64,000 nucleotides of DNA. It comes from Croceicoccus sp. Ery15 (GTDB lineage: Bacteria; Pseudomonadota; Alphaproteobacteria; Sphingomonadales; Sphingomonadaceae). Shown piece after piece: positions 41,575-57,449 of the stretch. Every line of letters begins with the position of its first letter. The first letter of the stretch is position 1. The position numbers were made by a program, and so were the translations under genes. The notes under the pieces are model-generated. The model saw only the letters and a program-made list of their open reading frames with translations, was not told where the DNA came from and searched no databases. The stretch lies in assembly GCF_020985305.1 (NCBI RefSeq), contig NZ_CP087588.1:3223501-3287500 (forward strand), read 5' to 3'.

Positions 41575-43398
41575 ATGTGCGGGATTATCGGGATCGTCGG
41601 TGCAGAGCCTGTCGCGGACCGGCTGGTCGACGGGCTGAAACGGATGGAATATCGCGGTTATGACAGTGCGGGCATCTGCACCATACATGACGGCGCGCTG
41701 ATCCGCCGCCGGGCAGAGGGCAAGCTGGCCAATCTGGCCCGCGAAGTGGCCGCACGCCCTGCCGCAGGCGATGTCGGCATCGCCCATACGCGCTGGGCCA
41801 CCCATGGCGCTCCGACCGAGGCGAATGCCCATCCGCATGCCACCCACGAAGTAGCCCTGGTCCACAATGGCATCATCGAAAACTTCAAGCCGCTGCGCGA
41901 CGAGCTGCTGGCGCAGGGGCGCAAGTTCGAAAGCGAAACCGACAGCGAGGTCGTGGTCCATCTGCTGTCGAGCCGGATCGAGCAGGGCATGTCGCCGCAG
42001 GACGCCGTGCGCGAAGTGCTGCCCATGCTGCGCGGTGCATTCGCGCTGGCCATCGCATTCCGTTCCGCGCCCGACATGCTGATCGGCGCGCGTCTGGGAT
42101 CGCCGCTGGTGGTGGGGTACGGAAAGGGCGAGACCTATCTGGGCAGCGATGCGCTGGCTCTGGCTCCGTTGACGCAGGACATCACCTATCTGGAAGAGGG
42201 CGACTGGGTCGTCATCACGCGGCAGGGCGCGCAGATTTTCGATGCGGATGGCCAGCCGGTCGAGCGGCCGGTCACCAAATCGGGCGCCAGCGCCGTTGCG
42301 ATCGAGAAGGGCAATTACCGCCACTTCATGCAGAAGGAAATCTTTGAGCAGCCGACCGTGGTGGCGCAAACGCTGCGCAGCTATATCCGGCAGCTGGAAC
42401 GCACCGTCGCCCTGCCGCAGATCGATTTCGATATCACCAGCATCAAGCGTGTAACCATCGTTGCCTGCGGTACCAGTTACTATGCGGGGATGGTCGCGAA
42501 ATACTGGTTCGAAACTTTCGCCCGCGTGCCCGTCGATATCGATGTGGCTTCCGAATTCCGTTACCGCGATCCAGTGCTGGAGGATGGCGGGCTGTCGCTG
42601 TTCATCTCGCAAAGCGGTGAGACAGCGGACACGCTGGCCGCGCTGCGCCATTGCAAGCAGGCGGGGCAGACCATCGCGGTCGTCGTCAACGTGCCGACCA
42701 GTTCCATGGCGCGCGAGGCGGATTTGCTGCTGCCCACCCATGCGGGGCCGGAAATCGGTGTGGCATCGACCAAGGCCTTCACTTGCCAGCTTGCCGTGCT
42801 GGCGGCGCTGGCGGCGCATTTCGCGGTCAAGAAGGGCCGACTGAGCGCGGCGGAAGAGCGCGAGATCGTCGACCATCTGTTGGAGGCGCCCGCCAGCCTG
42901 AACGATGCGCTGGCCCATGACGACGATATTGCCGCCATGGCGCATCTGATCGCGCCTGCGCGGGATGTGCTTTATCTGGGTCGCGGTCCGGATTTTCCGC
43001 TGGCGATGGAAGGCGCGCTGAAGCTGAAGGAAATCAGCTATATCCACGCCGAAGGCTATGCCAGCGGCGAGATGAAGCACGGGCCGATCGCGCTGATCGA
43101 CGATCTGGTGCCGGTGGTGGTGCTGGCACCGTCGGGCCCGCTGTTCGAAAAAACCGTCTCCAACATGCAGGAAGTGCGCGCACGCGGCGGCAGGATCGTG
43201 CTGATCAGCGATGCGGAGGGGATCGCAGAGGCCGGTGAAGGCTGCCTTGCCACCATCGAAATGCCGCGGGTCCACCCGCTGATCGCGCCGCTGGTCTATG
43301 CCGTTCCGGTGCAATTGCTGGCCTATCACGTTGCCGTGGCCAAGGGGACCGACGTGGATCAACCGCGGAATCTGGCCAAATCGGTAACGGTCGAGTGA
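41575..43398 (+). CDS. glmS: Glutamine-fructose-6-phosphate aminotransferase
   Basis: The 607-residue enzyme makes glucosamine 6-phosphate. Cys2 in MCGIIGIVG is the glutaminase nucleophile; RWATHGAPTEANAHPH and VVHNGIIENF-like LVHNGIIENFKPLRDEL (seen as VHNGIIENF) follow. Two SIS isomerase domains lie after about residue 280, with CGTSYYAG, SQSGETADTLAAL and the C-terminal AKGTDVDQPRNLAKSVTVE (seen as DVDQPRNLAKSVTVE). No glmS ribozyme is expected or seen. The first alginate-locus operator begins three bases after its stop. Confidence 0.97.
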   Translation: MCGIIGIVGAEPVADRLVDGLKRMEYRGYDSAGICTIHDGALIRRRAEGKLANLAREVAARPAAGDVGIAHTRWATHGAPTEANAHPHATHEVALVHNGIIENFKPLRDELLAQGRKFESETDSEVVVHLLSSRIEQGMSPQDAVREVLPMLRGAFALAIAFRSAPDMLIGARLGSPLVVGYGKGETYLGSDALALAPLTQDITYLEEGDWVVITRQGAQIFDADGQPVERPVTKSGASAVAIEKGNYRHFMQKEIFEQPTVVAQTLRSYIRQLERTVALPQIDFDITSIKRVTIVACGTSYYAGMVAKYWFETFARVPVDIDVASEFRYRDPVLEDGGLSLFISQSGETADTLAALRHCKQAGQTIAVVVNVPTSSMAREADLLLPTHAGPEIGVASTKAFTCQLAVLAALAAHFAVKKGRLSAAEEREIVDHLLEAPASLNDALAHDDDIAAMAHLIAPARDVLYLGRGPDFPLAMEGALKLKEISYIHAEGYASGEMKHGPIALIDDLVPVVVLAPSGPLFEKTVSNMQEVRARGGRIVLISDAEGIAEAGEGCLATIEMPRVHPLIAPLVYAVPVQLLAYHVAVAKGTDVDQPRNLAKSVTVE

Positions 43399-43400
43399 AT

Positions 43401-43410
43401 TGGCATGACA
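43401..43410 (+). promoter_or_regulatory. Candidate GntR operator, copy 1 (TonB receptor 1)
   Basis: TGGCATGACA, 87-96 bases upstream of the first receptor. It is one base from the perfect palindrome TGGCATGCCA. With its flank (TGGCATGACAGAATGG) it matches copy 5 (TGGTATGACAGTTTGG) at 13 of 16 positions. Confidence 0.5.
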
Positions 43411-43415
43411 GAATG

Positions 43416-43434
43416 GATTGATAATTTATCGATC
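43416..43434. promoter_or_regulatory. AT-rich 19-bp palindrome upstream of TonB receptor 1
   Basis: GATTGATAATTTATCGATC has nine-base arms (GATTGATAA/TTATCGATC) with one mismatch around a central T at 43425. It lies between operator copy 1 and a TTGACA at 43440-43445 and could be a second regulator site or the promoter core. Confidence 0.4.
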
Positions 43435-43439
43435 TAGGG

Positions 43440-43467
43440 TTGACAGAGATATAAGTCCGGTTATTCC
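43440..43467 (+). promoter_or_regulatory. Possible promoter of TonB receptor 1
   Basis: TTGACA (43440-43445) matches a sigma-70 -35 box exactly. The best partner at 16 bases is TATTCC (43462-43467), a weak -10 box. The receptor ATG lies 30 bases downstream, after GGAGGGAG. Confidence 0.3.
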
Positions 43468-43496
43468 TTCCGCAAATAAAGTTGTGGGAGGGAGTT

Positions 43497-46400
43497 ATGG
43501 ACATGCGTCGCCATTTCGCGCGTGCCGGAAAATCATCAGTTCAGTCGGTCCTGCTGGCCGGAACCGCTCTGGCGCTGGTTGCAGCGCCCGAGGCGCAGGC
43601 GCAGGACGCGGAAGAACCGCAGACCGATGACGAGGTTATCGTCGTTTCGGGCATCCGCGCGACCATTCAGGGCTCGATTGCGGAAAAGCGCGATAATGAT
43701 CTGATCTTCGACGCGCTGGCAGCCGATGAAATCGGTGATCTGCCTGCCCTTTCCATCGCAGAGGCGCTGGAAACGCTGACGGGTGCCAGCTCGCACCGCG
43801 AAAACGGCGGCGCGACCGAAATCTCGATCCGCGGGCTTGGGCCGTTCCTCAGCTCGACCACCATCAACGGGCGCGCGGCCACCAATGGCAGCGGCGACCG
43901 ATCGGTCAATTTCAGCCAGTTCCCTTCGGAGCTGTTCAACAAGGTCGGCATCTACAAGACCCAGTCGGCCAGCCTGATCGAGGGCGGCGTGGCGGGCCAG
44001 ATCACTCTGGAGACGGTCAAGCCGATCGATTACGGCAAGACCCGCGTGCAGGGCGAATTCAAGCTGAACGTCAATCCCGACAACCTCGACATCGAAGAGG
44101 ATCAGCGGTTTCAGGACCTCGGCTATCGCGCCACGCTGAGCTATATCGACCAGTTCCAGCTTGGCGATGGCGAACTGGGCATTTCGCTCGGCTATTCGCG
44201 CAACAGCTCGACCAATCCCGAACAGGAAGCTGCGATCAGCAATACGCTGAACTATTGCTCTAACGTGCCCGGTTCGGGCACCGGCGTGTTCGGGTCGGGC
44301 AATTGCAACACCGACCGTCCCGACACGGCCGGTACCGAAGATTACGTGATCGCGCAGAACGGCTATTCCTATCGCCAGAACATCACCGAGGATGAACGCG
44401 ATTCGTTTTTCGCGGCCCTGCAGATGCAGCCGGGGCCGGGCGTCGACATCAATCTCGACTTCCAATATTCGAAGCGGGATTTCCGTGAAAAGCGCCACGA
44501 CCTCAACTTTTCCGAGGGACGCCGTATTGACGGCGTGGGGGATGCATTCGGCCTCGATTACGATCTGATCACTGGTCCCTATGGCGAACTGTACCAGTTC
44601 ACCGGCGAGACCAGCATCGAATCGAACAGTGAATATTTCGAACGTCGCGAGGATTACTACGGCGGCGGCCTGAACTTCGAGGTAGAGGCGACCGACCGGC
44701 TGACCTTCTCGGGCGATGTTTCCTATTCGGAAACGAAGCGTATCGAAGAGGCGACGCAGGTGCGCATGCGTATCCGCGACGGCGAGGATATCTTCGGCAA
44801 TGAAGACCAATACCCGCTGGCCTATCAAAGCAATGGCAGCAGCACCGACGACCGTGTGGAAACTGCCTATCTGATCGCGCAGAACGGATCGCAGATCCCC
44901 AATTTCGTGGTGCTGGGTTTCGACCCCGACAATTACGATCTGTACCGCGACAATGCGCGCGTTCGCTACGATCTGGAATCCGACCGTTTCAACTCGATAT
45001 TCTCATGGCGGGGCGATCTGAATTACGAATTCGACGGCTTCCTGAAATCGGTTCAGGGCGGCGTGCGTTTTCAGGAACTGAAATACAGCGACGTTCCCGG
45101 TGCTTCGACCGGCACCAGCCGGATCGAGAACGTGTATAGCAACGAGGCGCTGGCAATCGCCAATCAGGCATGCCGCACCGCCTTTCCCGAAAGCGGTTTC
45201 CTGAGCTCTGTCTCGGGCGGCAATCCGCTGGTCACGATCGTCGACGAGAACGGCAATGTAACCGGCAGCACCAATACGTTCGCGACATGGGATGCATTGT
45301 GCCTTGCCCAGACGCTGGAGGCGAACGACCCCAGCGGTCTGATCGAGTTCGACGAGAATGCCGTGCCGATCTATCCCGACGGATCGTTCGATTCCATCCA
45401 GAACAGCGATGTCCGCGAAAAGACCAAGGCCGTCTATCTGCAGGCCAATTTCGACGGTGATCTGGGCGGTTTGCCCGTCTTGGGCAATTTCGGCGTTCGC
45501 GTGGTCGAAACTACGGTCAGCTCCAAGGGTTTCCGCGGCGCACTGACCGCCGAATTCGACGATGTGACCGGCGAATTGCTGTCGATCAGTGAAGACCAAA
45601 GCACTCTGAGCGAGGTAAAGGCCAGCAACAGCTATACCGAATTCCTGCCCAGCTTTAACCTGACGGCCGAATTCCAGCCCGACCTGCTGGGCCGTTTCGC
45701 GGTCTATCGCGCGATGTCGCGCCCCGATCCGTCGTCCATGTCCTATGGCCGCACGTTCAACGCGCTGGCCGAAGGCGATACGCCGATCTATTCGATCGAG
45801 GATGCGATCGGCACGGCCAATGCCACCGGCAATCCGTTCAGCGATCCGCTGATGTCATGGAACGCCGATGTCGCGGTGGAATGGTATCCGGATGCGGATT
45901 CGATCCTGGCCGTGGGCGCCTATTACAAGAGCTTCAACGGCGGGTTTGAAACCGTTGGCCGGTACGAAACCTTCACCGTCGACGGGCAGGATCTGCAAAC
46001 GCTGGTCACCACGACCAACACCACCGACGATACCAGCACGATCTGGGGTTTCGAAGTGACGGCGGCCCACCGTCTGGCCTGGCTGCCGCAGCCGCTCGAC
46101 GGGCTTGGCTTCAAACTCAGCTATAACTTCGCGGATTCGAATTTCGAATTCGAGGACGATACGCTGGGCGCGATTACGACGGTCAATCCCGATGGCACGA
46201 CTACGGTTAGCGAGGGGCTGATCCCGCCTGCCAATATCTTCGGCCTGTCCAAGCACGTATTGTCGGCACAGGCGTTCTATGAAATCGGCAATCTGGAGCT
46301 GCAGGGCGTGTACAAGTATCGCAGCAGCTATTTTCAGCAGTTCGTCTCTACCCCCGGGCGCGTCCGCTATGTCGATGACACCGGCGTGTTCGAGGCGCGA

Positions 46401-46556
46401 ATTTCATACAAGCTGACCGACAATATCAGGTTGAGCGCGGAAGGGCTAAACCTCTTCAACGAACCGCGAACCGATTATCGCGGCACGACAAACAATATTA
46501 GTCAGGTCCTTTCCTATGGCCCCCGCTATTACTTCGGGGTCCGGGCAAGGTTCTGA
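43497..46556 (+). CDS. TonB-dependent receptor 1 of the alginate locus
   Basis: The protein of about 1019 residues has a long signal sequence (QSVLLAGTALALVAAPEAQAQ), a TonB-box-like DDEVIVVSGIRATIQGSI, a plug domain (LPALSIAEALETLTGASSH, then EISIRGLGPFLSSTTINGR) and a large beta-barrel that ends in phenylalanine (YYFGVRARF). This is the Caulobacter/sphingomonad TBDR-Cau type. ATG 43497 has GGAGGGAG just upstream; a GTG at 43482 is open too. Neighbouring lyases indicate alginate or its oligomers as the ligand. No SusD-like partner exists, as expected outside Bacteroidetes. A strong terminator follows the stop. Confidence 0.92.
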   Translation: MDMRRHFARAGKSSVQSVLLAGTALALVAAPEAQAQDAEEPQTDDEVIVVSGIRATIQGSIAEKRDNDLIFDALAADEIGDLPALSIAEALETLTGASSHRENGGATEISIRGLGPFLSSTTINGRAATNGSGDRSVNFSQFPSELFNKVGIYKTQSASLIEGGVAGQITLETVKPIDYGKTRVQGEFKLNVNPDNLDIEEDQRFQDLGYRATLSYIDQFQLGDGELGISLGYSRNSSTNPEQEAAISNTLNYCSNVPGSGTGVFGSGNCNTDRPDTAGTEDYVIAQNGYSYRQNITEDERDSFFAALQMQPGPGVDINLDFQYSKRDFREKRHDLNFSEGRRIDGVGDAFGLDYDLITGPYGELYQFTGETSIESNSEYFERREDYYGGGLNFEVEATDRLTFSGDVSYSETKRIEEATQVRMRIRDGEDIFGNEDQYPLAYQSNGSSTDDRVETAYLIAQNGSQIPNFVVLGFDPDNYDLYRDNARVRYDLESDRFNSIFSWRGDLNYEFDGFLKSVQGGVRFQELKYSDVPGASTGTSRIENVYSNEALAIANQACRTAFPESGFLSSVSGGNPLVTIVDENGNVTGSTNTFATWDALCLAQTLEANDPSGLIEFDENAVPIYPDGSFDSIQNSDVREKTKAVYLQANFDGDLGGLPVLGNFGVRVVETTVSSKGFRGALTAEFDDVTGELLSISEDQSTLSEVKASNSYTEFLPSFNLTAEFQPDLLGRFAVYRAMSRPDPSSMSYGRTFNALAEGDTPIYSIEDAIGTANATGNPFSDPLMSWNADVAVEWYPDADSILAVGAYYKSFNGGFETVGRYETFTVDGQDLQTLVTTTNTTDDTSTIWGFEVTAAHRLAWLPQPLDGLGFKLSYNFADSNFEFEDDTLGAITTVNPDGTTTVSEGLIPPANIFGLSKHVLSAQAFYEIGNLELQGVYKYRSSYFQQFVSTPGRVRYVDDTGVFEARISYKLTDNIRLSAEGLNLFNEPRTDYRGTTNNISQVLSYGPRYYFGVRARF

Positions 46557-46561
46557 TCGTG

Positions 46562-46603
46562 GTGCCCGGTGCAAACCTCTCCAGTGCACCGGGCACTCTT
46601 TTT
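46562..46603 (+). terminator. Rho-independent terminator of TonB receptor 1
   Basis: GTGCCCGGTGCA (46562-46573) pairs perfectly with TGCACCGGGCAC (46585-46596) across an 11-base loop, followed by TCTTTTT (46597-46603). This is a textbook terminator five bases after the receptor stop, and it makes the regulator a separate transcription unit. Confidence 0.9.
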
Positions 46604-46612
46604 GTCCTACCA
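46603..46612 (-). promoter_or_regulatory. Candidate GntR operator, copy 2 (regulator gene)
   Basis: Read on the minus strand, TGGTAGGACA, 66-75 bases upstream of the regulator ATG and abutting the terminator U-run. It fits TGGYNNGMCA and suggests autoregulation. Confidence 0.45.
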
Positions 46613-46677
46613 AAACATGCGCTATCCTTGCTAACGGCCCTTTACAAAATCGGGGCAATCTCGGACGACGGTGCGCT

Positions 46678-47418
46678 ATGACTGGAACAAGACTATACCA
46701 ATCGATCGCCGAGCAGATCGCTCAGCTGATCGACGACGGCGCCTTCCCGCCCGGCACCCGCTTGCCGGGAGAGCGCGAAATGGCCGAACGGCTGGGCGTC
46801 AGCCGCGTCACCATCCGCGAGGCAGAGATTGCGCTTCAGGCCGTGGGCAGGCTTGAGATCAAGACCGGATCGGGCGTGTATGTCAGCGAGCGTCAGCCAG
46901 AGCTGATGGGGGCACTGCCCGGCGCGTCGGCATTCGAAGTGACCGAGGCCCGCCTGCTGATCGAATCCGAAGCGGCGGCGCTGGCGGCGCATAACATCAC
47001 CGAAGAAGGCATCGAAACGCTTGAAAAGCTTGTCGAAGACATGCGGTCGAGCGACGAGAAGATTTCGAACGAGGCGGACGAGAAATTCCACCTGACCATC
47101 GCCAAGGCATCGAATAATGCGGCGATCCTTCACACGATCCAGACCTTGTGGCGCATGCGCGAGGATATTCCGGACGTGAAGGCCACCTATGAATCGGTGT
47201 GCGTCCACGATGCCGACACCCGCACAGAGGAACACCGCGCCGTGTTCGACGCGTTGAAGAACCGCGATGCGGTCGCCGCGCGGGCAGCGATGCGCGAACA
47301 TTTCCACCGGCTGTTGCAGGCCATGCTCGACGCGACCGAGCAGCAGGCTTTGGAGGAATTGCGCAAGCGTGCATCGGAAAGCCGCGAACGCTTTACCACC
47401 GCGCAAAAAATTGGTTAG
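46678..47418 (+). CDS. FadR-subfamily GntR transcriptional regulator
   Basis: The 246-residue protein has an N-terminal winged helix-turn-helix (IAEQIAQLIDDGAFPPGTRLPGEREMAERLGVSRVTIREAEIAL, seen as RLPGEREMAERLGVSRVTIR) of the GntR family. The C-terminal all-helical FCD domain (about residues 95-230) carries metal-ligand candidates in DEKFHLTIAKASNN, EEHRAVFDALKNRD and REHFHRLLQ. Such regulators bind sugar acids or other organic acids; DEH or KDG is a likely inducer here, by inference from context. ATG 46678 is chosen because upstream codons lie in the receptor terminator. It precedes the PL6 operon, with two candidate operators after or across its stop. Confidence 0.9.
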   Translation: MTGTRLYQSIAEQIAQLIDDGAFPPGTRLPGEREMAERLGVSRVTIREAEIALQAVGRLEIKTGSGVYVSERQPELMGALPGASAFEVTEARLLIESEAAALAAHNITEEGIETLEKLVEDMRSSDEKISNEADEKFHLTIAKASNNAAILHTIQTLWRMREDIPDVKATYESVCVHDADTRTEEHRAVFDALKNRDAVAARAAMREHFHRLLQAMLDATEQQALEELRKRASESRERFTTAQKIG

Positions 47419-47421
47419 CCA
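47412..47421 (+). promoter_or_regulatory. Candidate GntR operator, copy 3 (PL6 operon, distal)
   Basis: TGGTTAGCCA overlaps the regulator's stop codon (TAG 47416-47418). Extended as TTGGTTAGCCAA it is a near-perfect palindrome. It lies 36 bases upstream of copy 4. Confidence 0.4.
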
Positions 47422-47447
47422 AATTGGATTTATAGAAAATCCTGCAC

Positions 47448-47457
47448 TGGTCTGCCA
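47448..47457 (+). promoter_or_regulatory. Candidate GntR operator, copy 4 (PL6 operon, proximal)
   Basis: TGGTCTGCCA, 65-74 bases upstream of the PL6 ATG. The left side, ACTGGTCTG, matches the E. coli FadR half-site AACTGGTCNG closely. A TTGACA (47465-47470) lies seven bases downstream as a possible -35 box, so a bound repressor would occlude the promoter. Confidence 0.45.
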
Positions 47458-47521
47458 AACTGCCTTGACATAACTGGCTCATCGTTTCAGTCTCTTTCCA
47501 TAATAGGAAAGGGATTTGAGG

Positions 47522-49774
47522 ATGCTTGCCCGATACGGCATTGGCGTCGCATTGACGCTGGCGATTGCTGCTCCGCTGCATGCGGAGGAATTTTTCGTTC
47601 GCAACCAGAACGAATATGCCCATGCGCTCAAGGGCGTCGAGGCTGGCGACATCATCATCCTCGCCAATGGCGAATGGAAGGATTTCGACCTTGTCATCAC
47701 TGGCAAGGGCACGGCGAAAAAGCCCATCACGGTGATTTCGGAAGAGGCGGGCAAGGTCTTTTTGACCGGCCAGTCCAGCCTGCGCATCGGCGGCGAGCAT
47801 ATCCTTGTGACCGGTCTGGTCTTCAAAGATGGCTACAGCCCGCGCGGCGAAGTCATCTCGTTCCGCCGCAGCAAGGACGATCAGGCGCGCAACAGCCGCG
47901 TGACCGAAGTGGTCATCGACCATTTCAGCAAGCCTGACCGCACCGACGACGATTACTGGGTCGGCATTTACGGAAAGAACAACCGGTTCGATCACAACAG
48001 CCTTGTCGGCAAGACCAACAAGGGCGTGACCCTTGCCGTCCGGCTCGACAGCGCGGAAAGCCGCGATAACGGACACCGGATCGACCATAACTATTTTGGC
48101 CCGCGCCCTGTCCTGGGATCGAATGGCGGAGAGACGATCCGCATCGGTACCAGCCAGTATTCAATGTATAATTCGGGCACGATCGTCGAAAACAACATCT
48201 TCGACCGCTGTGACGGCGAGGTCGAGATCGTCTCGAACAAGTCGGGCGGCAATATCTATCGCGGCAATCTTTTCCTGCGTTCGCGCGGGACGCTGACCTT
48301 GCGTCATGGCGACGGCAATCTGGTCGAAAGCAATGTCTTTCTGGGCCACAGCAAGGACTACACCGGCGGCATTCGCGTCATCAATCGTGACCAGATCGTG
48401 CGCGGCAATTACATGGAAGGGCTGCGCGGCACCGGCTTTTCCAGCGCGCTGACCGTGATGAACGGCGTGCCCAATTCGCCGGTGAACCGCTATGTTCAGG
48501 TCGAAAATGCACAGATCGAACGCAATACGGTTATCGACAGCGCACGGGTGACGCTGGGTGCCGGCGCCGATGACGAGCGATCGGCACCGCCCGTCAAAAG
48601 CGTGATGCGTGCGAACCTGCTGGGCGGGCTCGACTCCGGCACATTTGTCGAAGTGGATGCGGATATCTCGGGCATTCAATTCGCGGACAATGCCGTCATC
48701 AAAGGCGATGTGCACAGCGATGCCGCTGCCCTGCGCCGCGTCGATACCGAAATGGCGCGCGCGGGCAACGGGCTGCTTTATCCCGCCGATCCTGCATTGG
48801 CGGAAATCGGCGCGCCCCGCGACCTGAAGGTGATGCCGCTTGCCGAAGTCGGCCCAGACTGGTGGCCGAAGCCTGAGGCCGAGGCGGAATTTGCCAGCGG
48901 GACTACCACCATGGTGCCGGCGGGGGAAGGCACGCTGGCGGACGCTGCGGCATCAGCCGCGACCGGCGATGTGCTGCAACTGGCAGCGGGCGAATATGGT
49001 GTCGATCAGGCCATCGCCGTGACCAAGGTGCTGACGATCAAGGGGGCGGGCGCCGACACGGTGATCCGCTTTACCCGCCCGTCGCTGTTCGATCTGCAAC
49101 AGGGGGGCAATCTGCAACTGCAGAACCTGTCCATCGACGGATCGATGGCGCCCGATTCGGTTGGAAATTCGGTCATCCGCACCGGCAGCTTTCCGATCCA
49201 GTCGAACCTGATCGTAGAGATGGACGGCGTCAGCGTATCGGGTCTGACCGTCAATAAATCATTCAATGTGCTGACCATCGGGAAATCGGTGTTGGCCGAC
49301 CGTATCGCGATCCGCGGCAGCAGCTTTGCGGACATCACCGGCACCATCGTTTCCGCTTCGGCGGAAACGGACGATTACGGCCTCTATAATGTCGAATATC
49401 TCGACATCGTGGACAGCCGCTTCGCCAATGTCGGAGAGGCGGTGGCGAATGTCTATCGCGGCGGCACCGATGAAAGCACGTTCGGCCCGTCCGTGACTTT
49501 TACCGGCAATACGCTGGCCAACATCGGCAAGGCTGCCACCAATGCCGAGGGCGCCTCGCTCTATCTGCATGGCGTGCAAACCGCCGATGTCGCACGCAAC
49601 ACGGTTACCGGTTCCGCACCGTTCAAAGTCGTCCACACCGTCGGCACGCCCGTCACCCGCATTCGTGACAACAGCTTTGCGAAAACACCCGCGCCGGTAG
49701 TGACGGAGTTGAATTACGAAGGACTTCCGCGCGCCGCGATGCAGGGCAATTCGGTCGACGGAAAGGCCCTGTGA
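47522..49774 (+). CDS. PL6 family alginate lyase (chondroitinase-B-like fold)
   Basis: The 750-residue exported lyase has a signal sequence (GVALTLAIAAPLHA) and two parallel beta-helix regions. The catalytic N-terminal domain (about 22-430) carries NKSGGN and LRHGDGN, placing Lys240 and Arg261 21 residues apart, the same spacing as the catalytic Lys220/Arg241 of AlyGC. The C-terminal helix domain (about 440-750) lacks them, as in two-domain PL6 enzymes. It cleaves alginate by beta-elimination, likely at the outer membrane or in the periplasm. ATG 47522 follows GGAAAGGG; a TTG at 47516 is less likely. Its stop overlaps the PL17 ATG (TGATG). Confidence 0.93.
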   Translation: MLARYGIGVALTLAIAAPLHAEEFFVRNQNEYAHALKGVEAGDIIILANGEWKDFDLVITGKGTAKKPITVISEEAGKVFLTGQSSLRIGGEHILVTGLVFKDGYSPRGEVISFRRSKDDQARNSRVTEVVIDHFSKPDRTDDDYWVGIYGKNNRFDHNSLVGKTNKGVTLAVRLDSAESRDNGHRIDHNYFGPRPVLGSNGGETIRIGTSQYSMYNSGTIVENNIFDRCDGEVEIVSNKSGGNIYRGNLFLRSRGTLTLRHGDGNLVESNVFLGHSKDYTGGIRVINRDQIVRGNYMEGLRGTGFSSALTVMNGVPNSPVNRYVQVENAQIERNTVIDSARVTLGAGADDERSAPPVKSVMRANLLGGLDSGTFVEVDADISGIQFADNAVIKGDVHSDAAALRRVDTEMARAGNGLLYPADPALAEIGAPRDLKVMPLAEVGPDWWPKPEAEAEFASGTTTMVPAGEGTLADAAASAATGDVLQLAAGEYGVDQAIAVTKVLTIKGAGADTVIRFTRPSLFDLQQGGNLQLQNLSIDGSMAPDSVGNSVIRTGSFPIQSNLIVEMDGVSVSGLTVNKSFNVLTIGKSVLADRIAIRGSSFADITGTIVSASAETDDYGLYNVEYLDIVDSRFANVGEAVANVYRGGTDESTFGPSVTFTGNTLANIGKAATNAEGASLYLHGVQTADVARNTVTGSAPFKVVHTVGTPVTRIRDNSFAKTPAPVVTELNYEGLPRAAMQGNSVDGKAL

Positions 49775-51966
49775 TGCGGACTGCGATGCATCGGGCGTTC
49801 GCCTCCCTGCTTGCCGCTACCGCGCTGACCTGCGTTGCGCCTGTGCCTGCGCTGGCCTCTGCCGCGACGGCGCAGCAAACGGCCGAGGGGCTGCCCCCGC
49901 TTTATGCCGAAGAGCTTGAGCGGGCGAAAAACTTCGTCGACACCATGATCGAGGCAGGTATCAATGTGCCCGTGCCCAGGGATCCGGGCGGCGGTTATAC
50001 CCATGAACAGCACAAGCGGAATTTTCAGGCGATCCATCTGGGCGGCGATCTTTATCGCATCACCAAAGACCCGCGCTACGCCGCTTTCGTGCGCGACATG
50101 CTGCTGGAATATGCCGAACTTTACCCGACGCTAAAGGGCGATCATCCGGCTGCCAGCAACCAGTATAGCGGCCGCCTGTTCTGGCAGGTGCTGAACGATG
50201 CGATGTGGCTGGTCCATGCGGTTCAGGGCTATGCCGAAATCCGCGATACGCTGTCCGATGCCGACCGCGAACGCATCGACAATGACGTCTTCCGCCGCGC
50301 TTCGGACTTTCTTTCGAAGGATCAGGTCAGGACGTTCGACCGCATTCACAACCACGCCACCTGGGCGACCGCAGGCGTGGGGATGACCGGCTATCTGCTG
50401 GGCGACCGCGACATGGTGGACCGCGCCCTGCTGGGTTCGGACAAATCGGGCAAGGCGGGCTTTCTACGGCAGATGGACCTGCTGTTCTCCCCCGACGGCT
50501 ATTACACCGAGGGACCCTATTACCAGCGGTTTGCCCTGCTGCCGTTCATGGTGTTCGGTCAGGCAATTGCCGACAACGATCCCGCGCAGCAGATTTTCGA
50601 GCGTCGCGACGGCATTCTGCTCAAGGCGCTGCGCGCGACGATCCAGTTGACCTATGCGGGCTATTTCTTCCCCTTCAACGATGCGATGAAGGACAAGAGC
50701 CTTCGCACCGCCGAACTCTATGACGGTGTCGCCATCGCCTATGGCCAGACGCGCGACCCCGCGCTTTTGTCCATCGCGCAGTGGCAGGGGCGCACCGTGC
50801 TGGGCGAAGACGGCTTGATGCTCGCCCGCGATCTGGAGGCGGGCAAGGCGCAGCCCTTTCCGTTCCGCTCCATGCTGTTCAGCGACGGTCCCGACGGCGA
50901 TCTGGGCGCGGTCGCGGTTCTACGCGCGGGTGAGGGGGCGAAGCAGACCGCTCTCGTCGCCAAAAACAGTTCGCAAGGCATGGGACACGGCCATTTCGAC
51001 AAGCTGAGCTGGCAGTTTTACGACAACGGGAACGAGATCGTGCGCGATTACGGCGCGGCCCGCTTCCTGAATATCGAGGCGAAGCAGGGCGGGCGCTATC
51101 TTCCCGAAAACGAAAGCTGGGCCAAGCAAACCATCGCGCATAATACGCTGGTGGTGGACGAGGTCAGCCATTTCGGCGGCGATGCCAGGCTGGCCGACAC
51201 CATTGCTCCGAAACAGCTCTATTTCTCCGACGCGGACGGCCTTCAGGTTTCCAGCGCGGAAGTGACGGGCGCCTATCCCGATGTTGCGTTTAATCGCACC
51301 TTGGTGCTGACCGGCATGCCCGGCGGTGGCGGCAGGCTGGTGATCGATCTGCTGCGCGCCGATGCGCAGGGCACGCATGTCTATGATTTGCCGCTTCACT
51401 ATAACGGCCACATCATGGAGGCCGACTTCGCGATCGAGCGGAATCTGGCGACCCGCCCGGTGCTGGGCGGCGACCATGGCTATCAGCATCTCTGGGTCGA
51501 CGGCACGGCGACGCCCGATGCTGGCGATGCAGCGCTGACATGGCTGATCGACGGACGGTTCTATAGCTATCGTTTCGTCACCGACGGCACGACGCAGGTC
51601 GTGCTAGGCGAAAGCGGGGCGAACGATCCCGAATTCAATCTGCGCCGCGAACCGATGGTGATGCTGCGCGCACGGGCCGATGGCGGGCGCAGCTTTCTGT
51701 CGGTGCTGGAAAGTCACGGCCAATATGATGGCGCAGCCGAACGCACCGTCGCCAGCCGCAGCCAGATCGCATCGCTGCGCCATGTCGTGGCGGACGGCAA
51801 TGACATCGCGGTGATCACGCCCGTCGGCGGCGCGCCGTTCGCCATCGCTATTTCGCACAATCCCGATCCGGCCCGGCGCCACCAGGCGAAGCTGGACGGC
51901 CAGACGATCCGCTGGACCGGCTTTGCCGCGCGCATTGCCCTTACCCCCAAGGAACAACGCAAATGA
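49774..51966 (+). CDS. PL17 family oligoalginate lyase
   Basis: The 730-residue exported lyase has an N-terminal signal sequence (SLLAATALTCVAPVPALA), an alpha/alpha-toroid domain (about 50-380) and a C-terminal beta-sheet domain. Residues known from Alg17C are seen: Asn-His in RIHNHATWATAG, the catalytic tyrosine in TEGPYYQRFALLP, zinc-site histidine in GMGHGHFDKLSWQF, aspartate in VRDYGAARF and histidine in KQTIAHNTLVVD. It releases unsaturated monouronate, which becomes DEH, from oligomers made by PL6. It is coupled to PL6 upstream (TGATG) and to the transporter downstream (ATGA). Confidence 0.94.
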   Translation: MRTAMHRAFASLLAATALTCVAPVPALASAATAQQTAEGLPPLYAEELERAKNFVDTMIEAGINVPVPRDPGGGYTHEQHKRNFQAIHLGGDLYRITKDPRYAAFVRDMLLEYAELYPTLKGDHPAASNQYSGRLFWQVLNDAMWLVHAVQGYAEIRDTLSDADRERIDNDVFRRASDFLSKDQVRTFDRIHNHATWATAGVGMTGYLLGDRDMVDRALLGSDKSGKAGFLRQMDLLFSPDGYYTEGPYYQRFALLPFMVFGQAIADNDPAQQIFERRDGILLKALRATIQLTYAGYFFPFNDAMKDKSLRTAELYDGVAIAYGQTRDPALLSIAQWQGRTVLGEDGLMLARDLEAGKAQPFPFRSMLFSDGPDGDLGAVAVLRAGEGAKQTALVAKNSSQGMGHGHFDKLSWQFYDNGNEIVRDYGAARFLNIEAKQGGRYLPENESWAKQTIAHNTLVVDEVSHFGGDARLADTIAPKQLYFSDADGLQVSSAEVTGAYPDVAFNRTLVLTGMPGGGGRLVIDLLRADAQGTHVYDLPLHYNGHIMEADFAIERNLATRPVLGGDHGYQHLWVDGTATPDAGDAALTWLIDGRFYSYRFVTDGTTQVVLGESGANDPEFNLRREPMVMLRARADGGRSFLSVLESHGQYDGAAERTVASRSQIASLRHVVADGNDIAVITPVGGAPFAIAISHNPDPARRHQAKLDGQTIRWTGFAARIALTPKEQRK

Positions 51967-53240
51967 CGAAGAACCGCCTCCGCTGGCTGGTCGTCGGACT
52001 GGTCGCCCTTGCGGGCATCATCAACTATATCGATCGCGGTGCGCTCAGCATTCTCTGGCCCGAAATTTCGGAAGAGCTGGGGATGACGAAGCTCGACTAT
52101 GCGATCATCCTCAATGTCTTCACCTTCGCCTATGCATTCGGGCAGACCCTGTTCGGCAAGATTTTCGACTGGATCGGCACGCGCCTCGGCTTCGTGCTGT
52201 CGATCGCGGTGTGGTCGCTGGCGACGATCCTGCATGCCTTTGCGCGCGGATTGTTCAGCTTTGCGCTGTTTCGCGGGCTTTTGGGCGTGGCAGAGGCAGG
52301 CAACTGGCCCGGCGCGACCAAGGCCAATGCCGAATGGTTTCCGATCCGCGAGCGCGCATTGGCGCAAGGCATCTTCAATTCGGGCACGGCCATCGGCGGC
52401 ATCATTTCTGCACCCGTCGTCGCCTATCTGTTCGTGTTTCTGGGGTCGTGGCACGCGACATTCATCACCATCGGCGTGCTCGGTTTCCTGTGGCTGGTGC
52501 CGTGGCTGATCGTTTATAAAAGCGGCCCCGATGCCCATCCGTGGATCGGCGCGGAAGAGCGGGACTATATCCTGACCGGGCAGCGCAATGCTGCATCGAA
52601 CGATACCGCCGACTACGCCCCCGGATCGGGCGAGATCCTGTCGCACAAGGAAAGCTGGGGCGTCATTGCCGCATCCTTCTTCATCGATCCGATCTGGTGG
52701 CTGTTTGTCGGCTGGTTGCCGCTGTATCTGGCCGAAACCTATGGCTTTGGCGTGACCGATATCGGGCTTTACGCATGGGTCCCCTATGTCGGCGGTATGT
52801 TCGGCGCATGGTTCGGCGGGCTGATGGCGCAGAACCGGATCAAGGCCGGCTGGACCGTCAACAAGACGCGCAAGGCGACGATCGCACTGGGCGGGTTGAT
52901 CATGCTGGTATCGCTGCTGTTGACGATGAAGGCGGCTACCCCCTTGATGGCCGTGCTGCTGATGGCCGCGATCCTGTTCGGGTTCCAGACCGCCATCGGC
53001 AATATCCAGACGCTGCCCAGCGATTTCCTCAGCGGAAGGTCGGTCGGCACGCTGGCGGGCTACGCCGGTACGGCGGCCAAGCTGGCGGTCGTCGGCCTCA
53101 ACTTCCTCATCCCGATCATCACGATTGACAGTTACACGCCCGCCTTTGCGGTGGGTGCGGCGCTGGCGATCATGACGGTGCTGTCGGTGCTGGTGCTGTG
53201 TCCGGAAATCCGGCCGCTCAAGCCCAGGGCCGCTCGTTAA
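51963..53240 (+). CDS. MFS transporter, hexuronate/DEH uptake candidate
   Basis: The 425-residue protein has 12 hydrophobic segments in two groups of six with a central cytoplasmic loop (about 195-230). NYIDRGALSILWPEI after helix 1 and GKIFDWIGTRLGF (loop 2-3 signature, DRxG-like) place it in the anion:cation symporter group that includes ExuT-type hexuronate permeases. AEAGNWPGATKANAEWFP is the typical loop 4-5 block of that group. Its ATG overlaps the PL17 stop (ATGA). By context it carries DEH or small unsaturated uronates from periplasm to cytoplasm. Confidence 0.9.
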   Translation: MTKNRLRWLVVGLVALAGIINYIDRGALSILWPEISEELGMTKLDYAIILNVFTFAYAFGQTLFGKIFDWIGTRLGFVLSIAVWSLATILHAFARGLFSFALFRGLLGVAEAGNWPGATKANAEWFPIRERALAQGIFNSGTAIGGIISAPVVAYLFVFLGSWHATFITIGVLGFLWLVPWLIVYKSGPDAHPWIGAEERDYILTGQRNAASNDTADYAPGSGEILSHKESWGVIAASFFIDPIWWLFVGWLPLYLAETYGFGVTDIGLYAWVPYVGGMFGAWFGGLMAQNRIKAGWTVNKTRKATIALGGLIMLVSLLLTMKAATPLMAVLLMAAILFGFQTAIGNIQTLPSDFLSGRSVGTLAGYAGTAAKLAVVGLNFLIPIITIDSYTPAFAVGAALAIMTVLSVLVLCPEIRPLKPRAAR

Positions 53241-53275
53241 TTCCTCTCCTACCCTCTCCAGATCAAAGGTTTGAC

Positions 53276-54031
53276 ATGAGCAAATTTACCAACAAGACCG
53301 CAATCGTAACCGGCGGGAGCCGCGATATCGGGCGCGCCGTTTCGATCGACCTTGCGAAGAACGGGGCGAATGTCGTCGTGAATTATCGCGGTGACGAGGC
53401 TGCCGCCGATGCCACCTTGGCCGAGATCGAGAAGTTCGGCGGCAAAGCCATCAAGGTTAAGGCCGACGTGACCAAAGCGGCCGAGGTCGATGCGCTGGTT
53501 GCGGCCGCGCGCGAGGCATTCGGCGATGCGATCCATATTCTGGTCAACGTGGCAGGCGGCATGGTCGAACGGCGTCCCCTGGCCGACATGGACGAAGAAT
53601 TCTTCAACTATGTGATGCAGCTGAATGTCACCTCGACCTTCCTGACGACCAAGGCGGTCGCACCCTTCATGCCTGAAGGTTCGGCGATCGTGAACTATGC
53701 CTCGCAAGCAGGGCGCGATGGCGGCGGTCCGGGCGCCAGCGCATATGGTACGTCGAAGGGCGCAGTGATGACCTTTACCCGCGCCATGGCGAAAGAGCTT
53801 GGCCCCAAGGGCATTCGCGTCAATTCGCTCTGCCCCGGCATGATCGCCACGCTGTTCCACGACACGTTCACCAAGGATGAAGTGCGCGCCAATGTGGCCG
53901 CCGCTACGCCGCTGCGCCGTCAGGGCAATGTGGAAGAAGTCGCGCAGACGACGTCCTGGCTGGCGAGCGACGAAGCGGCCTTTGTCACCGGCGCGAACAT
54001 CGACATCAATGGCGGCATGTTCTTCTCCTGA
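53276..54031 (+). CDS. SDR-family reductase, probable DEH reductase
   Basis: The 251-residue classical SDR starts KTAIVTGGSRDIGRAVSIDL. ADVT and NVAGG (in place of the usual NNAG) follow; the catalytic serine is in NYASQAG and the pair in SAYGTSKGAV. C-terminal GANIDINGGMFF is family-typical. Similar SDR enzymes in alginate degraders (A1-R of Sphingomonas A1, for example) reduce DEH to 2-keto-3-deoxygluconate with NAD(P)H. That specific reaction is inferred from locus and overall resemblance. ATG 53276 has AAAGG nine bases upstream; the frame is open further upstream, overlapping the transporter. A terminator follows. Confidence 0.88.
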   Translation: MSKFTNKTAIVTGGSRDIGRAVSIDLAKNGANVVVNYRGDEAAADATLAEIEKFGGKAIKVKADVTKAAEVDALVAAAREAFGDAIHILVNVAGGMVERRPLADMDEEFFNYVMQLNVTSTFLTTKAVAPFMPEGSAIVNYASQAGRDGGGPGASAYGTSKGAVMTFTRAMAKELGPKGIRVNSLCPGMIATLFHDTFTKDEVRANVAAATPLRRQGNVEEVAQTTSWLASDEAAFVTGANIDINGGMFFS

Positions 54032-54046
54032 TGGCTGCCACGAAAG

Positions 54047-54093
54047 GCCCGGCGGTCCCCCTCCCTGCCCGTCAGGGAGCGCCGGGCGTTTCT
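54047..54093 (+). terminator. Terminator after the PL6-PL17-MFS-SDR operon
   Basis: A nested stem: GCCCGGCG (54047-54054) pairs with CGCCGGGC (54080-54087), and inner CTCCCTG (54061-54067) with CAGGGAG (54073-54079), followed by GTTTCT. It ends the lyase operon and separates it from the second receptor. Confidence 0.75.
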
Positions 54094-54113
54094 ATGTTTA
54101 GGAGAGTGTAAAC

Positions 54114-54123
54114 TGGTATGACA
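54114..54123 (+). promoter_or_regulatory. Candidate GntR operator, copy 5 (TonB receptor 2)
   Basis: TGGTATGACA sits inside AAACTG-N6-CAGTTT (54110-54127), a perfect six-base dyad. It fits TGGYNNGMCA and shares a 16-base context with copy 1. It is about 285 bases upstream of the receptor ATG. Confidence 0.5.
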
Positions 54124-54151
54124 GTTTGGCATTATATAAAATATCAAACTG
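54122..54151. repeat. CAGTTTG/CAAACTG inverted repeat flanking an AT-rich core
   Basis: CAGTTTG (54122-54128) and CAAACTG (54145-54151) are exact reverse complements around a 16-base AT-rich core that contains TATAAA (54135-54140), a good -10 candidate. The left arm is shared with the AAACTG/CAGTTT dyad of operator copy 5. Confidence 0.5.
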
Positions 54152-54165
54152 CACTAGAATAAATA

Positions 54166-54194
54166 TTGACCAGATTGGCCGAATCCCGTAATTT
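54166..54194 (+). promoter_or_regulatory. Possible alternative promoter of TonB receptor 2
   Basis: TTGACC (54166-54171) and TAATTT (54189-54194) are 17 bases apart. The -10 box is weak. An upstream TATAAA at 54135-54140, inside the inverted repeat, is a competing choice. Either gives a leader of more than 200 bases before the ATG at 54408, in which I see no known RNA element. Confidence 0.3.
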
Positions 54195-54407
54195 CGGCTT
54201 CAAGAATAAAGCAAGGGGAGTCGGCGCGTTTCGGGCACGCCAGTGACGGTGCGAAGGGCGCGCCGATGGCGCAGGTCCGGCCTGCAATCTACGGTTAACA
54301 GCAATATTTGCGGTCCTGGTCAGGGCCGGTTTTCACGGTCCCGTCCGCGCGGCGGGGCGCGGGTTCTTACGCCCGAAAAGAACAGAACGATTTTGGGAGA
54401 AAATGGC

Positions 54408-57400
54408 ATGGCTTTCGATACACGCTCGCAATCCGTCCTGAGGAAGCTGCCCGCCAGCGCGGCGCTGCTGGCCAGCACGGCATTGTTCGCAACCCCCGTT
54501 TTCGCACAGGATGCAGACCCGCAGCCCGCGCCTTCCGCAGCGCAATCGGCCCCTGCCGAAAGCGAGGCGATCGTCGTCACCGGCATCCGCAGCTCGCTGC
54601 AAAGCGCGCTGAACCAGAAGCGCAGCGCCGACAGCCTGATCGAGGTGATCGAGGCCGAAGACATCGGCAAGCTGCCCGACCAGAATCTGGCCGAAGTGCT
54701 TGAAAACATTCCCGGCATCCAGATCACGCGAGAGGCCGGCGTCGGCACCGGCGTGCAGATCCGCGGCACCAATGACAACCGGACCGAAATCAACGGCGTG
54801 TCCACTGTCGGTTCGGGCTCGGGCCGCGGCGGGATCAGTTTCGAAGACGTCAGCGCCAGCATCATCTCGTCGGTAGAGGTGATCAAGGCGCCCGAGGCGA
54901 AGACCATCGAAGGTTCGGTCGGCGGCACGATCAACCTGCGCACGATCCGCCCGCTCGACCTGAACGAACCGCTGATCGCGGCGCGCGTGCAGGGCGAATA
55001 TAGCGAGCTGTCCGACAGCACCAAACCGCGCCTGTCGGGGACTCTCGGCAATCGCTGGGATACGGGCGTTGGTGAAATCGGCATCGTGCTCAGCGGCAGC
55101 TATGCCGAGCAGGAGGCCACATCGTTCCGCCCGCGCGTCGACCGCGATGGCGGTCTGGTGGAAAATGTGAATGCCAATGTCGTGCGCAATGGCACCGCGC
55201 AAAACCCTGCGGCCCGTCCTGCCGCGCAGGATTTCGACTTCGTCGGTATTCAGTTCCTGAATCAGGAGCTGGAGAATTTCGAATATGAAACGGTGAATTT
55301 CGCCGGCACGCTGGAATGGGCGCCGTCGGACAAGCTCAAATTCTATTTCGATACCGTCTATAACGATCAGGAACGCCGTCAGGACAGCTCGCGCGTGCAG
55401 GCTTCGGGCGTCAGCGCTCTGGTCGATCACATGGTGCCCGACACGTTCGAAACGGTCGATTTCGGATCGCTCGACGGAGTTGATCTGGGCAGCATCCAGG
55501 TGGCGGAAACCGGCGTGATCGAACCGATCCTCTCGGTCGATGGCGACGATCCCAACCTGCGTTTTTCCAGCGACGTGGGCGCGCGCCTGACCACCAGCGA
55601 AATCTATCGCCTGGGCACCGAGTTCGAGGCAGGCCGCTTCTCCGCCCGTGTAGAGGCATCGCGCTCGCTGGCCAATACGACCAGCCCCGACCTCAGCACC
55701 ACGATCAATTTCATCAACCCGCATACGCCAACCGGCAATGGCAACGACAATGCCGTGCCGTTTGCCTATGATCTGTCGGGCAATTCGCTGACCTTCGGGA
55801 TCAACCAGAATTCGCAATATGCGCCGACAACGGCCGAATTGCTCGACCCCGCAAATGTGGTGCTCCAGCAGATCGTGATCGGCAACGACAGCCAGCGGAA
55901 CAAGGAAGATGCATTCCGCATCGACGCATCGGTCGATGTTTATGGCACCAATCCGTTCTTCACCTCGTTCGACTGGGGCTATCGCTACAGCAAGACGACC
56001 AGCACCTATAACGATGTCGGTTCGACGCTGACCCTCAGCCAGATGAACGATAGCCCGCGCGGCACCGCCTTTGCCGAGCTGCTGGTCCCCGGACCTGACA
56101 ATTTCGGCGATGCCGACGGGCGAGAGCTGTATTTCGGCGACTTCCTGCTGATCGATCCCGACCGCGCCTTCAGCGACCGCGAAGGCACGCTGGCGATCCT
56201 GCAGGACGCGCTGAATTCGGTTCCCGGCATGCGCCAGATCGGCGAGGCTTCGGAGAATTCGGCCGGCTATTTCTCGATCGATGAAACGACCCATGCGGTC
56301 TATGGTCAGGCGAATTTCGAATATGGCCCGATCCGCGGCAATATCGGCCTGCGCTGGATCGACACCAGCCTCGATTCCACGGGTAATTCGGTGACCGGAT
56401 CCGACGTTACGCAAGTCGTGACCAAGGGCGGCTATGCCAAGCTGCTGCCGCGCATCAACCTTGCCGCAGAGGTGACCGACGACGTCATGGTCCGCGCCAG
56501 TTGGGGCAAGGATATCAACCGTCCCGACTATGACCTGCTGTCGACATCGGTGTCCTTTGTCACCAGCGAGAATGCGGCGGTCCAGATCGGCAATGCAAAT
56601 CTGAAGCCGGAAACGGTGACGTCCTATGATTTGTCCGCAGACTGGTATTTCGCCCCGTCTTCGGTGCTGAGCGTCGCGTTCTTCCACAAGAACCGCAAGG
56701 ATCTGTTCGTAACGCAGCTGGAAGATGCGCCGCTGGACGCCAACGGTTTCCGCGACATCACCGCGCCATGCGAAGGGGGCGGCATTTACAACCCCATCGC
56801 GTTCCGCAACCAGCTGTCGCCCATCGGCGGTTCGGGCATGTGCGTGCCCATCCTGACCACGATCAACGATACGGGCAGCACGACGCAGACCGGCGTGGAA
56901 GTCACCTTCCAGTACGATCTGTCGCAGTTTGAAGACACGCTGGGCTTTGCGTCTGGCTTTGGCCTGCTCGCCAATTATACCTATCAGGAATATGGCGGGG
57001 GCGAGGCGTTCAATACGTCGGCGACGCGCGGTACCGATATCTTCAACGCGATCAACGGCATTTATGACGATGCGGACTTCGTGACCTATACCGCCAAACA
57101 GGGCCTGCTCGATTTCTCGAAACATGCCTATAACGTGACCGTCTATTACGAGAAATACGGCCTTTCGGCGCGTGCGCGCTACACATGGCGTGACTCTTTC
57201 CGCACGCTCGATACGGTCGGTGGTGCGACACTCAGCAGTACATTGGGCTTTCCGGTCGTCACCGCCGCGCGCGGCCAGCTGAACGGCAGCATCAATTACG
57301 ACATCACCGAATGGCTGGCGGTCGGGGTAGAGGGCGTGAACCTCACCAAATCGACCATCAAGCAATATTGCGTGAACGACGGCGCACTGCTGTGCGGCGA

Positions 57401-57449
57401 GGGGCTTCCCGACCGCCGCCTGATCGCGGGCTTCTCGGTCAAGTTCTAA
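54408..57449 (+). CDS. TonB-dependent receptor 2 of the alginate locus
   Basis: The 1013-residue receptor has a signal sequence (AALLASTALFATPVFAQ), the TonB-box region EAIVVTGIRSSLQSALNQK, a plug domain with DIGKLPDQNLAEVLENIPGI and VQIRGTNDNRTEINGV, the SVGGTINLRTIRPLD boundary and a large barrel that ends in phenylalanine (IAGFSVKF). The VTGIRSSLQSALNQKR start is the classic TBDR-Cau signature. The sequence is clearly diverged from receptor 1, so they may take different oligomer sizes. ATG 54408 is preceded by GGGAG; the frame is open to 54243 but those residues look non-coding. Its promoter shares the operator motif with the locus. Confidence 0.92.
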   Translation: MAFDTRSQSVLRKLPASAALLASTALFATPVFAQDADPQPAPSAAQSAPAESEAIVVTGIRSSLQSALNQKRSADSLIEVIEAEDIGKLPDQNLAEVLENIPGIQITREAGVGTGVQIRGTNDNRTEINGVSTVGSGSGRGGISFEDVSASIISSVEVIKAPEAKTIEGSVGGTINLRTIRPLDLNEPLIAARVQGEYSELSDSTKPRLSGTLGNRWDTGVGEIGIVLSGSYAEQEATSFRPRVDRDGGLVENVNANVVRNGTAQNPAARPAAQDFDFVGIQFLNQELENFEYETVNFAGTLEWAPSDKLKFYFDTVYNDQERRQDSSRVQASGVSALVDHMVPDTFETVDFGSLDGVDLGSIQVAETGVIEPILSVDGDDPNLRFSSDVGARLTTSEIYRLGTEFEAGRFSARVEASRSLANTTSPDLSTTINFINPHTPTGNGNDNAVPFAYDLSGNSLTFGINQNSQYAPTTAELLDPANVVLQQIVIGNDSQRNKEDAFRIDASVDVYGTNPFFTSFDWGYRYSKTTSTYNDVGSTLTLSQMNDSPRGTAFAELLVPGPDNFGDADGRELYFGDFLLIDPDRAFSDREGTLAILQDALNSVPGMRQIGEASENSAGYFSIDETTHAVYGQANFEYGPIRGNIGLRWIDTSLDSTGNSVTGSDVTQVVTKGGYAKLLPRINLAAEVTDDVMVRASWGKDINRPDYDLLSTSVSFVTSENAAVQIGNANLKPETVTSYDLSADWYFAPSSVLSVAFFHKNRKDLFVTQLEDAPLDANGFRDITAPCEGGGIYNPIAFRNQLSPIGGSGMCVPILTTINDTGSTTQTGVEVTFQYDLSQFEDTLGFASGFGLLANYTYQEYGGGEAFNTSATRGTDIFNAINGIYDDADFVTYTAKQGLLDFSKHAYNVTVYYEKYGLSARARYTWRDSFRTLDTVGGATLSSTLGFPVVTAARGQLNGSINYDITEWLAVGVEGVNLTKSTIKQYCVNDGALLCGEGLPDRRLIAGFSVKF

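Follow-up and report, generated by a model that had tools for sequence, protein, structure and literature searches.

Conserved predicted operators of a GntR-type regulator encoded in an alginate-use locus of Croceicoccus sp. Ery15

A 64,000-nucleotide stretch of the single-contig, 3.63-Mb genome of Croceicoccus sp. Ery15 (NZ_CP087588.1, positions 3,223,501 to 3,287,500), called the window below, contains an alginate-use locus with two genes for TonB-dependent receptors (TBDR1 and TBDR2), a gene for a GntR-type regulator (gntR) and a PL6-type lyase gene that appears to head an operon. A motif with the left half ATTGGT recurs before both receptor genes and the lyase gene. These sites are probably operators of the FCD-type GntR regulator encoded in the locus, which would most likely be an alginate-inducible repressor. 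The observation is real in substance and ordinary in kind, namely a locus-specific GntR regulator with conserved predicted operators. An earlier sequence-only reading had proposed five copies of the decamer TGGYNNGMCA as the operator of a probable GntR regulon. It is partly supported: it was right in substance, but corrections are needed to the motif itself and to the rank given to three of the copies. Of the proposed regulon, a motif that is conserved, tracks the regulator and is rare elsewhere in the own genome stood, and the consensus, the equality of the copies and the role of copy 2 did not.

The motif, its conservation, its placement and its co-occurrence with the regulator are results of computation. 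Expectation-maximisation motif finding with 40 seeds on 69 upstream regions of 23 orthologous loci, the window excluded, yielded cAAATTGGTATgAcAaaaa, on which several of the seeds converged. These training loci (L039-L061, regulator identity at least 47%) all have the regulator, and at least one further locus gene lies beside it in 23 of 23, this being TBDR1 alone in L055. Among 199 genomes of the family, 54 had a match to the regulator at E<=1e-20 and 22, the own genome included, at an identity of at least 47%. Scanning named genomes for the regulator returned 40 loci, of which 35 are orthologues (at least 46% identity, other alginate-locus genes nearby) and 5 are not. After removal of the training duplicates (L114, L115, L116, L119) and the non-orthologues (L140-L144), the held-out set comprised 31 loci in 14 clusters, 10 of the 31 forming one Sphingomonas cluster. 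The named loci include those of Pontixanthobacter, Pelagerythrobacter, Erythrobacter, Qipengyuania, Sphingomonas and relatives. Upstream strings shorter than 60 bases and gene matches below 36% identity were dropped, an upstream region with a best score of at least 16 bits was taken as positive, and first-order Markov resampling served as the null.

In the held-out set, the motif was found upstream of TBDR2 in 12 of 12 cases, of TBDR1 in 22 of 25 and of PL6 in 17 of 20 (1.2%, 0.4% and 0.5% of the resampled sequences, respectively). The intra-operon gaps before the MFS transporter gene, used as a negative control, had no such match (0 of 18), nor had the gaps before the SDR gene (0 of 2). Weighting by cluster gave 8.0/8 for TBDR2, 7.0/10 for TBDR1, 9.0/12 for PL6, 4.0/14 for gntR, 0/12 for MFS and 0/2 for SDR; one of three PL17 upstream regions was positive (L132). 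The expected conservation of the sites in orthologous loci was thereby borne out with a motif obtained independently of the decamer. This does not extend to copy 2 as a conserved autoregulatory site: a score of at least 16 bits was reached in only 5 of 31 gntR upstream regions, and the placement of copy 2 before gntR was not seen in the listed orthologues. A bare half-site precedes gntR in 17 of the 31 held-out loci vs 7.7% in resampled sequence, because of which autoregulation through 46603 is possible, though weakly supported.

All five decamers are present in the window where the earlier reading had placed them, and copies 1 and 5 share the flanks AATTGGCATGACAGAATGG and AACTGGTATGACAGTTTGG. 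The copies were said to lie in the gaps that start transcripts. This holds, within or at the edge of the gap, before TBDR1, gntR, PL6 and TBDR2, except that copy 3 (47412-47421) overlaps the stop codon of gntR (47416-47418). Equal standing of the copies was not found, the matrix scores falling from 25.3 bits for copy 5 to 9.7 bits for copy 4 (Table 1). Over the 64 kb, the matrix ranked 54109 first, 43396 second, 47407 third, 54122 fourth, 47420 sixth and 46598 (minus strand) eighth; the sites at 54122 and 47420 were absent from the earlier list. The fifth and seventh matches, 5146 (17.3 bits) and 55162 (15.1 bits, within TBDR2), lie outside regulatory gaps. The maxima of 30 resampled windows (first-order Markov) ranged from 9.3 to 19.3 bits, and therefore only copies 5 and 1 stand out singly, the others by their placement.

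The decamer consensus fared worse than its sites. It matches 17 times in the window vs 10.5 expected, and 5 of 100 shuffles reached 17. Genome-wide there were 753 matches vs 736 for the reversed control, i.e., no excess. In the held-out upstream regions, it was found at TBDR2 in 8 of 12 cases, at TBDR1 in 3 of 25, at PL6 in 4 of 20 and at gntR in 0 of 31, and with this poor recall at the last three and no genomic excess, it was rejected as a probe. Among 75 distinct sites, its seventh position is G at 0.51 and T at 0.32, and its eighth is A at 0.89.

Outside the locus, the motif is rare in the own genome. With at most one mismatch, AATTGGYATKACA occurs there five times (control 1); two matches are the TBDR1 and TBDR2 promoters, and the other three (L080-L082) lie inside open reading frames of 886, 166 and 1004 amino acids. 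A promoter model of 50 positions, built from 44 sequences not including the window, reported two places in the genome at E<=10, again the TBDR1 and TBDR2 promoters; the PL6 promoter of the window was not reported by it. No new regulon members were found in the own genome at E<=10 (150 of 161 first-look candidates scored). Over the 199 genomes, exact AATTGGTATKACA was found 21 times in 18 genomes (control 3), and it is present in 12 of the 22 regulator genomes vs 6 of the 177 others. Of the 15 exact matches in the former group, 14 point towards a TBDR or PL6 gene of alginate type, vs none of the 6 in the latter; two of the 14 are outside the main locus, namely L097 and L085 (about 500 bp distant from the gene). 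At E<=1, the promoter model matched in 19 of the 21 genomes that have the regulator vs 2 of 20 other genomes, a comparison that is partly circular because the model was built from training and held-out loci; the own-genome scan is not circular. A looser pattern, ATTGGYNTN{31,33}GTTGAC, had matches in 63 of the 199 genomes, for the most part at coding-looking or chance places, and was not used for counts.

The regulator is of FadR type, as had been claimed: its N-terminal GntR winged helix-turn-helix (PF00392) and C-terminal FCD domain (PF07729) both exceed the Pfam cut-offs of 27 and 24.3 bits. Its scores with the NCBIfam equivalogs stay far below the cut-offs (122.8 of 396 bits for ExuR, 107.1 of 442 for UxuR, 110.5 of 311 for LldR). 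The operator statistics come from 75 distinct sites in 103 promoters, 91 of which have a site; as the sites were picked with the site matrix, the arm frequencies are biased. The left half ATTGGT is nearly fixed. At a 3-base spacer, the right half reads A (0.89), C (0.68) and then A (0.84) where a dyad needs C (0.08). The form TNGTNNNAC is matched by 40 of the 75 sites. An even-spaced, UxuR-type op1 (the predicted operator with TTGG about 40 bp upstream of -35) was rejected, with the innermost right-arm positions at 0.88 and 0.68 for the 3-base spacer vs 0.17 and 0.03, values from a site set that included invalid PL17 strings. Copies 3 and 4 are even-spaced dyads.

Paralogues of the regulator were found at 17 loci (L062-L078, identity at most 45%) in which neither PL6 nor PL17 was matched. 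With the same matrix, these loci have 25 sites of at least 16 bits, some of the related form ATTGGT...CAAT. The dyad position carries C in 12 of these 25 vs 6 of the 75 alginate sites. Among the genes beside the paralogue sites are those for ManD (L062, L063, L073) and galactonate-type transporters (L067, L068, L073); 2 of 10 proteins checked there had no match. Fixed differences separate the regulator from the paralogues; for instance, it has V43, K61 and C174 where they have P, R and R. Judged by FadR, these residues would lie in the recognition helix, the wing and the FCD domain.

Two off-locus observations touch on the target set. Sites upstream of TBDR1- or TBDR2-like genes outside the main locus (L190, G004:C12:39938; L205/L097, G160:C3:176068; L085, G023:C2:163174) are candidates for distant regulon members. 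In L044 (1921-2875), the site ATTGGTATGACA stands directly upstream of a mannonate dehydratase (uxuA) frame lacking the first 84 or so profile positions, and it may link the alginate operator to a hexuronate gene.

The sites are placed regularly with respect to the putative -35 element. In held-out promoters with a plus-strand site of at least 16 bits, the distance from TTGG to the next TTGAC downstream is 39-41 bp in 11 of 12 TBDR2, 13 of 17 PL6 and 6 of 19 TBDR1 cases, and little else is conserved between the site and -35. In the window, op1 of PL6 (TTGG at 47424, degenerate) and of TBDR2 (TTGG at 54126) follow this spacing, as does that of TBDR1. At PL6 and TBDR2, copies 3 and 5, respectively, add a site 13 bp upstream of op1, and copy 4 occupies the position of a second PL6 operator. 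Relative to -35, 62 Erythrobacter-type promoters anchored on TTGAC have strict half-sites at -41 (3), -40 (31), -39 (8) and -17 (6), and 21 promoters of Sphingomonas, Caulobacter and Niveispirillum type have them at -17 (17), +18 (3) and +31 (10); the grouping by clade is our own, and positions with fewer than 3 half-sites are unlisted. Only 16 distinct PL6 promoters were anchored out of 41 examined. In Erythrobacter-type promoters, a -10 element within one mismatch of TATAAT was found in 0 of 46 receptor vs 3 of 16 PL6 promoters. The change of operator position between clades is the most interesting point left over, and it offers a natural test of a change in the regulator's mode.

For binding, the dimer, repression and the effector, we infer the following scheme. 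The regulator, presumably a dimer, would bind sites of the form ATTGGT-N3-AC(A) at the promoters of TBDR1, TBDR2 and the PL6 operon. In the absence of alginate, it would occupy the DNA beside the -35 element and keep the promoters low, and in Sphingomonas-type loci it would also sit around the presumed start site. An intermediate derived from alginate (an unsaturated oligomer, DEH or KDG) may bind the FCD domain and release the regulator, upon which receptors, lyases, transporter and reductase would be switched on together. Repression is favoured because of the position next to -35, the +31 site of Sphingomonas-type loci and the analogy to AusR and the sugar-acid repressors; the effector is suggested by its position in the pathway.

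Several results weigh against this scheme. The FadR-subfamily operator consensus, given as TNGTNNNACNA in PMC2230225, is matched exactly by just 17 of the 75 distinct sites; the motif resembles the FadR-class operator, with its TGGT arm strong. Exact AATTGGTATKACA is absent from the window's own genome. The promoter model lacks a match in 2 of the 21 regulator genomes and has one in 2 of the 20 others, in one of which (G021) a ManD gene follows the site. Paralogue loci, too, have related sites. The upstream placement and the poor -10 boxes of the receptors also fit activation, which is kept in play by them and by the precedent of a FadR-subfamily regulator reported to activate ptsG when bound to a site with its centre at -60 (PMC2230225). 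An activator or dual regulator at the same operators, its dimers at -40 and -17 relative to -35 aiding RNA polymerase at receptor promoters, is nevertheless unlikely, since in Sphingomonas-type loci a site lies close to the presumed start (at +31 in 10 of 21 promoters), the known sugar-acid relatives are described as repressors, and the 39-41 bp spacing is kept in just 6 of 19 TBDR1 promoters. Somewhat more doubtful is a combined history, in which the regulator shares its ancestry with the hexuronate (ManD-linked) regulators, whose operators are more symmetric; in the alginate branch, one half-site would have eroded and two sites would have been fixed in phase with -35, 40 and 17 bp upstream of it (23 bp apart). 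One and the same protein would then control Erythrobacter-type loci from an upstream position, perhaps by activation, and Sphingomonas-type loci by repression at the start site. The idea of erosion is weakened because a right arm matching at 5-6 of 6 positions is seen in just 7 of the 25 paralogue sites (alginate set: 5 of 75).

It is improbable that the sites belong to another regulator, e.g., a GntR paralogue of hexuronate type encoded at another place in the genome. Eleven of the 17 loci of the 40-45% identical paralogues do have a match of at least 18 bits, several beside ManD or galactonate-type transporter genes, but matches of at least 22 bits were found in 26 of 31 held-out alginate loci vs 2 of 17 for the paralogues, the exact motif goes with the alginate-linked regulator across genomes, and gntR itself is the sole own-genome match at E<=1e-20. 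Chance, or shared promoter descent without operator function, is very improbable. The decamer lacks a genome-wide excess and TBDR1 and TBDR2 are paralogous, as such an origin would have it, yet the 14 held-out clusters retain the motif at genes as unrelated as TBDR and PL6, the sequence between site and -35 is otherwise little conserved, and the MFS gaps are free of the motif. The locus-encoded, probably repressing GntR regulator is the reading retained here.

Comparable systems have been described. AusR of Zobellia galactanivorans is described as a GntR-family repressor of the alginate locus that acts via single, double or triple operator copies and is released by alginate degradation products (Dudek et al. 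2020; PMC8286568, PMC7874173). The present locus resembles that system in that a gene of the GntR family lies among alginate genes whose promoters have several predicted operator copies; the AusR host, however, is a Flavobacterium, and the comparison covers the descriptions of the two systems. UxuR, ExuR and DgoR of Escherichia coli are GntR/FadR sugar-acid repressors (PMC12288454). The regulator shares the FCD type with these three, and ExuR, LldR and UxuR are its best NCBIfam matches, but it is far under the equivalog cut-offs and the targets of UxuR, ExuR and DgoR are hexuronate or galactonate genes. In Corynebacterium glutamicum, the site position of GntR1/GntR2 decides between repression and activation (PMC2230225); the operator is likewise of the FadR subfamily, whereas the controlled genes are those of gluconate and glucose uptake in a Gram-positive host. 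The ManD-linked paralogues of the same bacterial family, up to 45% identical and with some related sites, differ in their loci and fixed residues as described above. GntR genes in alginate clusters of Proteobacteria are already in print (PMC7874173), and gntR deletions are named for Vibrio sp. C42 in passages that give no outcome for them (PMC13390454). Among the matches listed in the open-access literature, no described GntR-alginate operator for sphingomonads was found. For alginate use in this group, the present result puts forward a specific operator and a set of targets that can be tested.

The features of the locus are collected in Table 1. The PL6, PL17, MFS and SDR genes look like one operon because their reading frames overlap. 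The name PL6 for the first lyase follows its family, and the SDR oxidoreductase is presumably a DEH reductase.

Table 1. Genes, predicted operators and putative -35 elements of the alginate-use locus (window coordinates)
Feature	Position	Strand	Basis
TBDR1 op1, predicted operator (copy 1)	43396..43415	+	21.8 bits; best own-genome model match, E 0.028
Putative -35 of TBDR1, TTGACA	43440..43445	+	40 bp after TTGG of op1
TBDR1, TonB-dependent receptor	43497..46556	+	TIGR01782 486 bits, cut-off 310
Possible operator before gntR (copy 2), weakly supported	46598..46617	-	14.3 bits
gntR, GntR/FCD (FadR-subfamily) regulator	46681..47418	+	Pfam GntR 66.2 bits, FCD 89.2 bits
Extra upstream site before PL6 (copy 3), overlapping gntR stop	47407..47426	+	18.1 bits
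Degenerate op1 of PL6, position conserved in orthologues	47420..47439	+	16.6 bits; TTGG 41 bp before TTGACA
Second operator position of PL6 (copy 4)	47448..47457		by-eye alignment with TTGGCATGCCAA / ATGCCAGATTGATTGACA of orthologues; 9.7 bits
Putative -35 of PL6, TTGACA	47465..47470	+	
PL6-type lyase (Chondroitinas_B family), first gene of operon	47522..49774	+	PF14592 350.9 bits
Oligoalginate lyase (PL17 type)	49771..51966	+	NF042990 962 bits (under cut-off 1400); Alg17C_C and Alginate_lyase domains
MFS transporter	51963..53240	+	PF07690
SDR oxidoreductase	53198..54031	+	PF13561
Strongest site (copy 5), 13 bp upstream of TBDR2 op1	54109..54128	+	25.3 bits, best of window; model match E 0.51
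TBDR2 op1, predicted operator	54122..54141	+	17.5 bits; TTGG 40 bp before TTGACC
Putative -35 of TBDR2, TTGACC	54166..54171	+	
TBDR2, TonB-dependent receptor	~54408..57449	+	TIGR01782 514 bits for longer open reading frame from 54243

The locus looks patchily distributed because no alginate regulator above 43% identity was matched at E<=1e-20 in the other three genomes sampled from the genus (G036, G119, G178). In orthologous loci, PL17 and MFS are frequently separated by a gap of about 385 bp, which is absent from the window (51960-51970). In L105 (15274-15624), this gap holds a small cupin-like reading frame without an NCBIfam match, and an own-genome search at E<=0.001, made without a positive control, gave no relative. 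In our reading, the frame resembles KdgF. The TBDR2 start at 54408 was chosen by a signal-peptide-like N terminus, and the resulting leader is unusually long: 242 bp separate the putative -35 from this likely ATG, vs about 60-110 bp in orthologues. A GTG at 54243 is in frame with TBDR2 (window 54171-54408).

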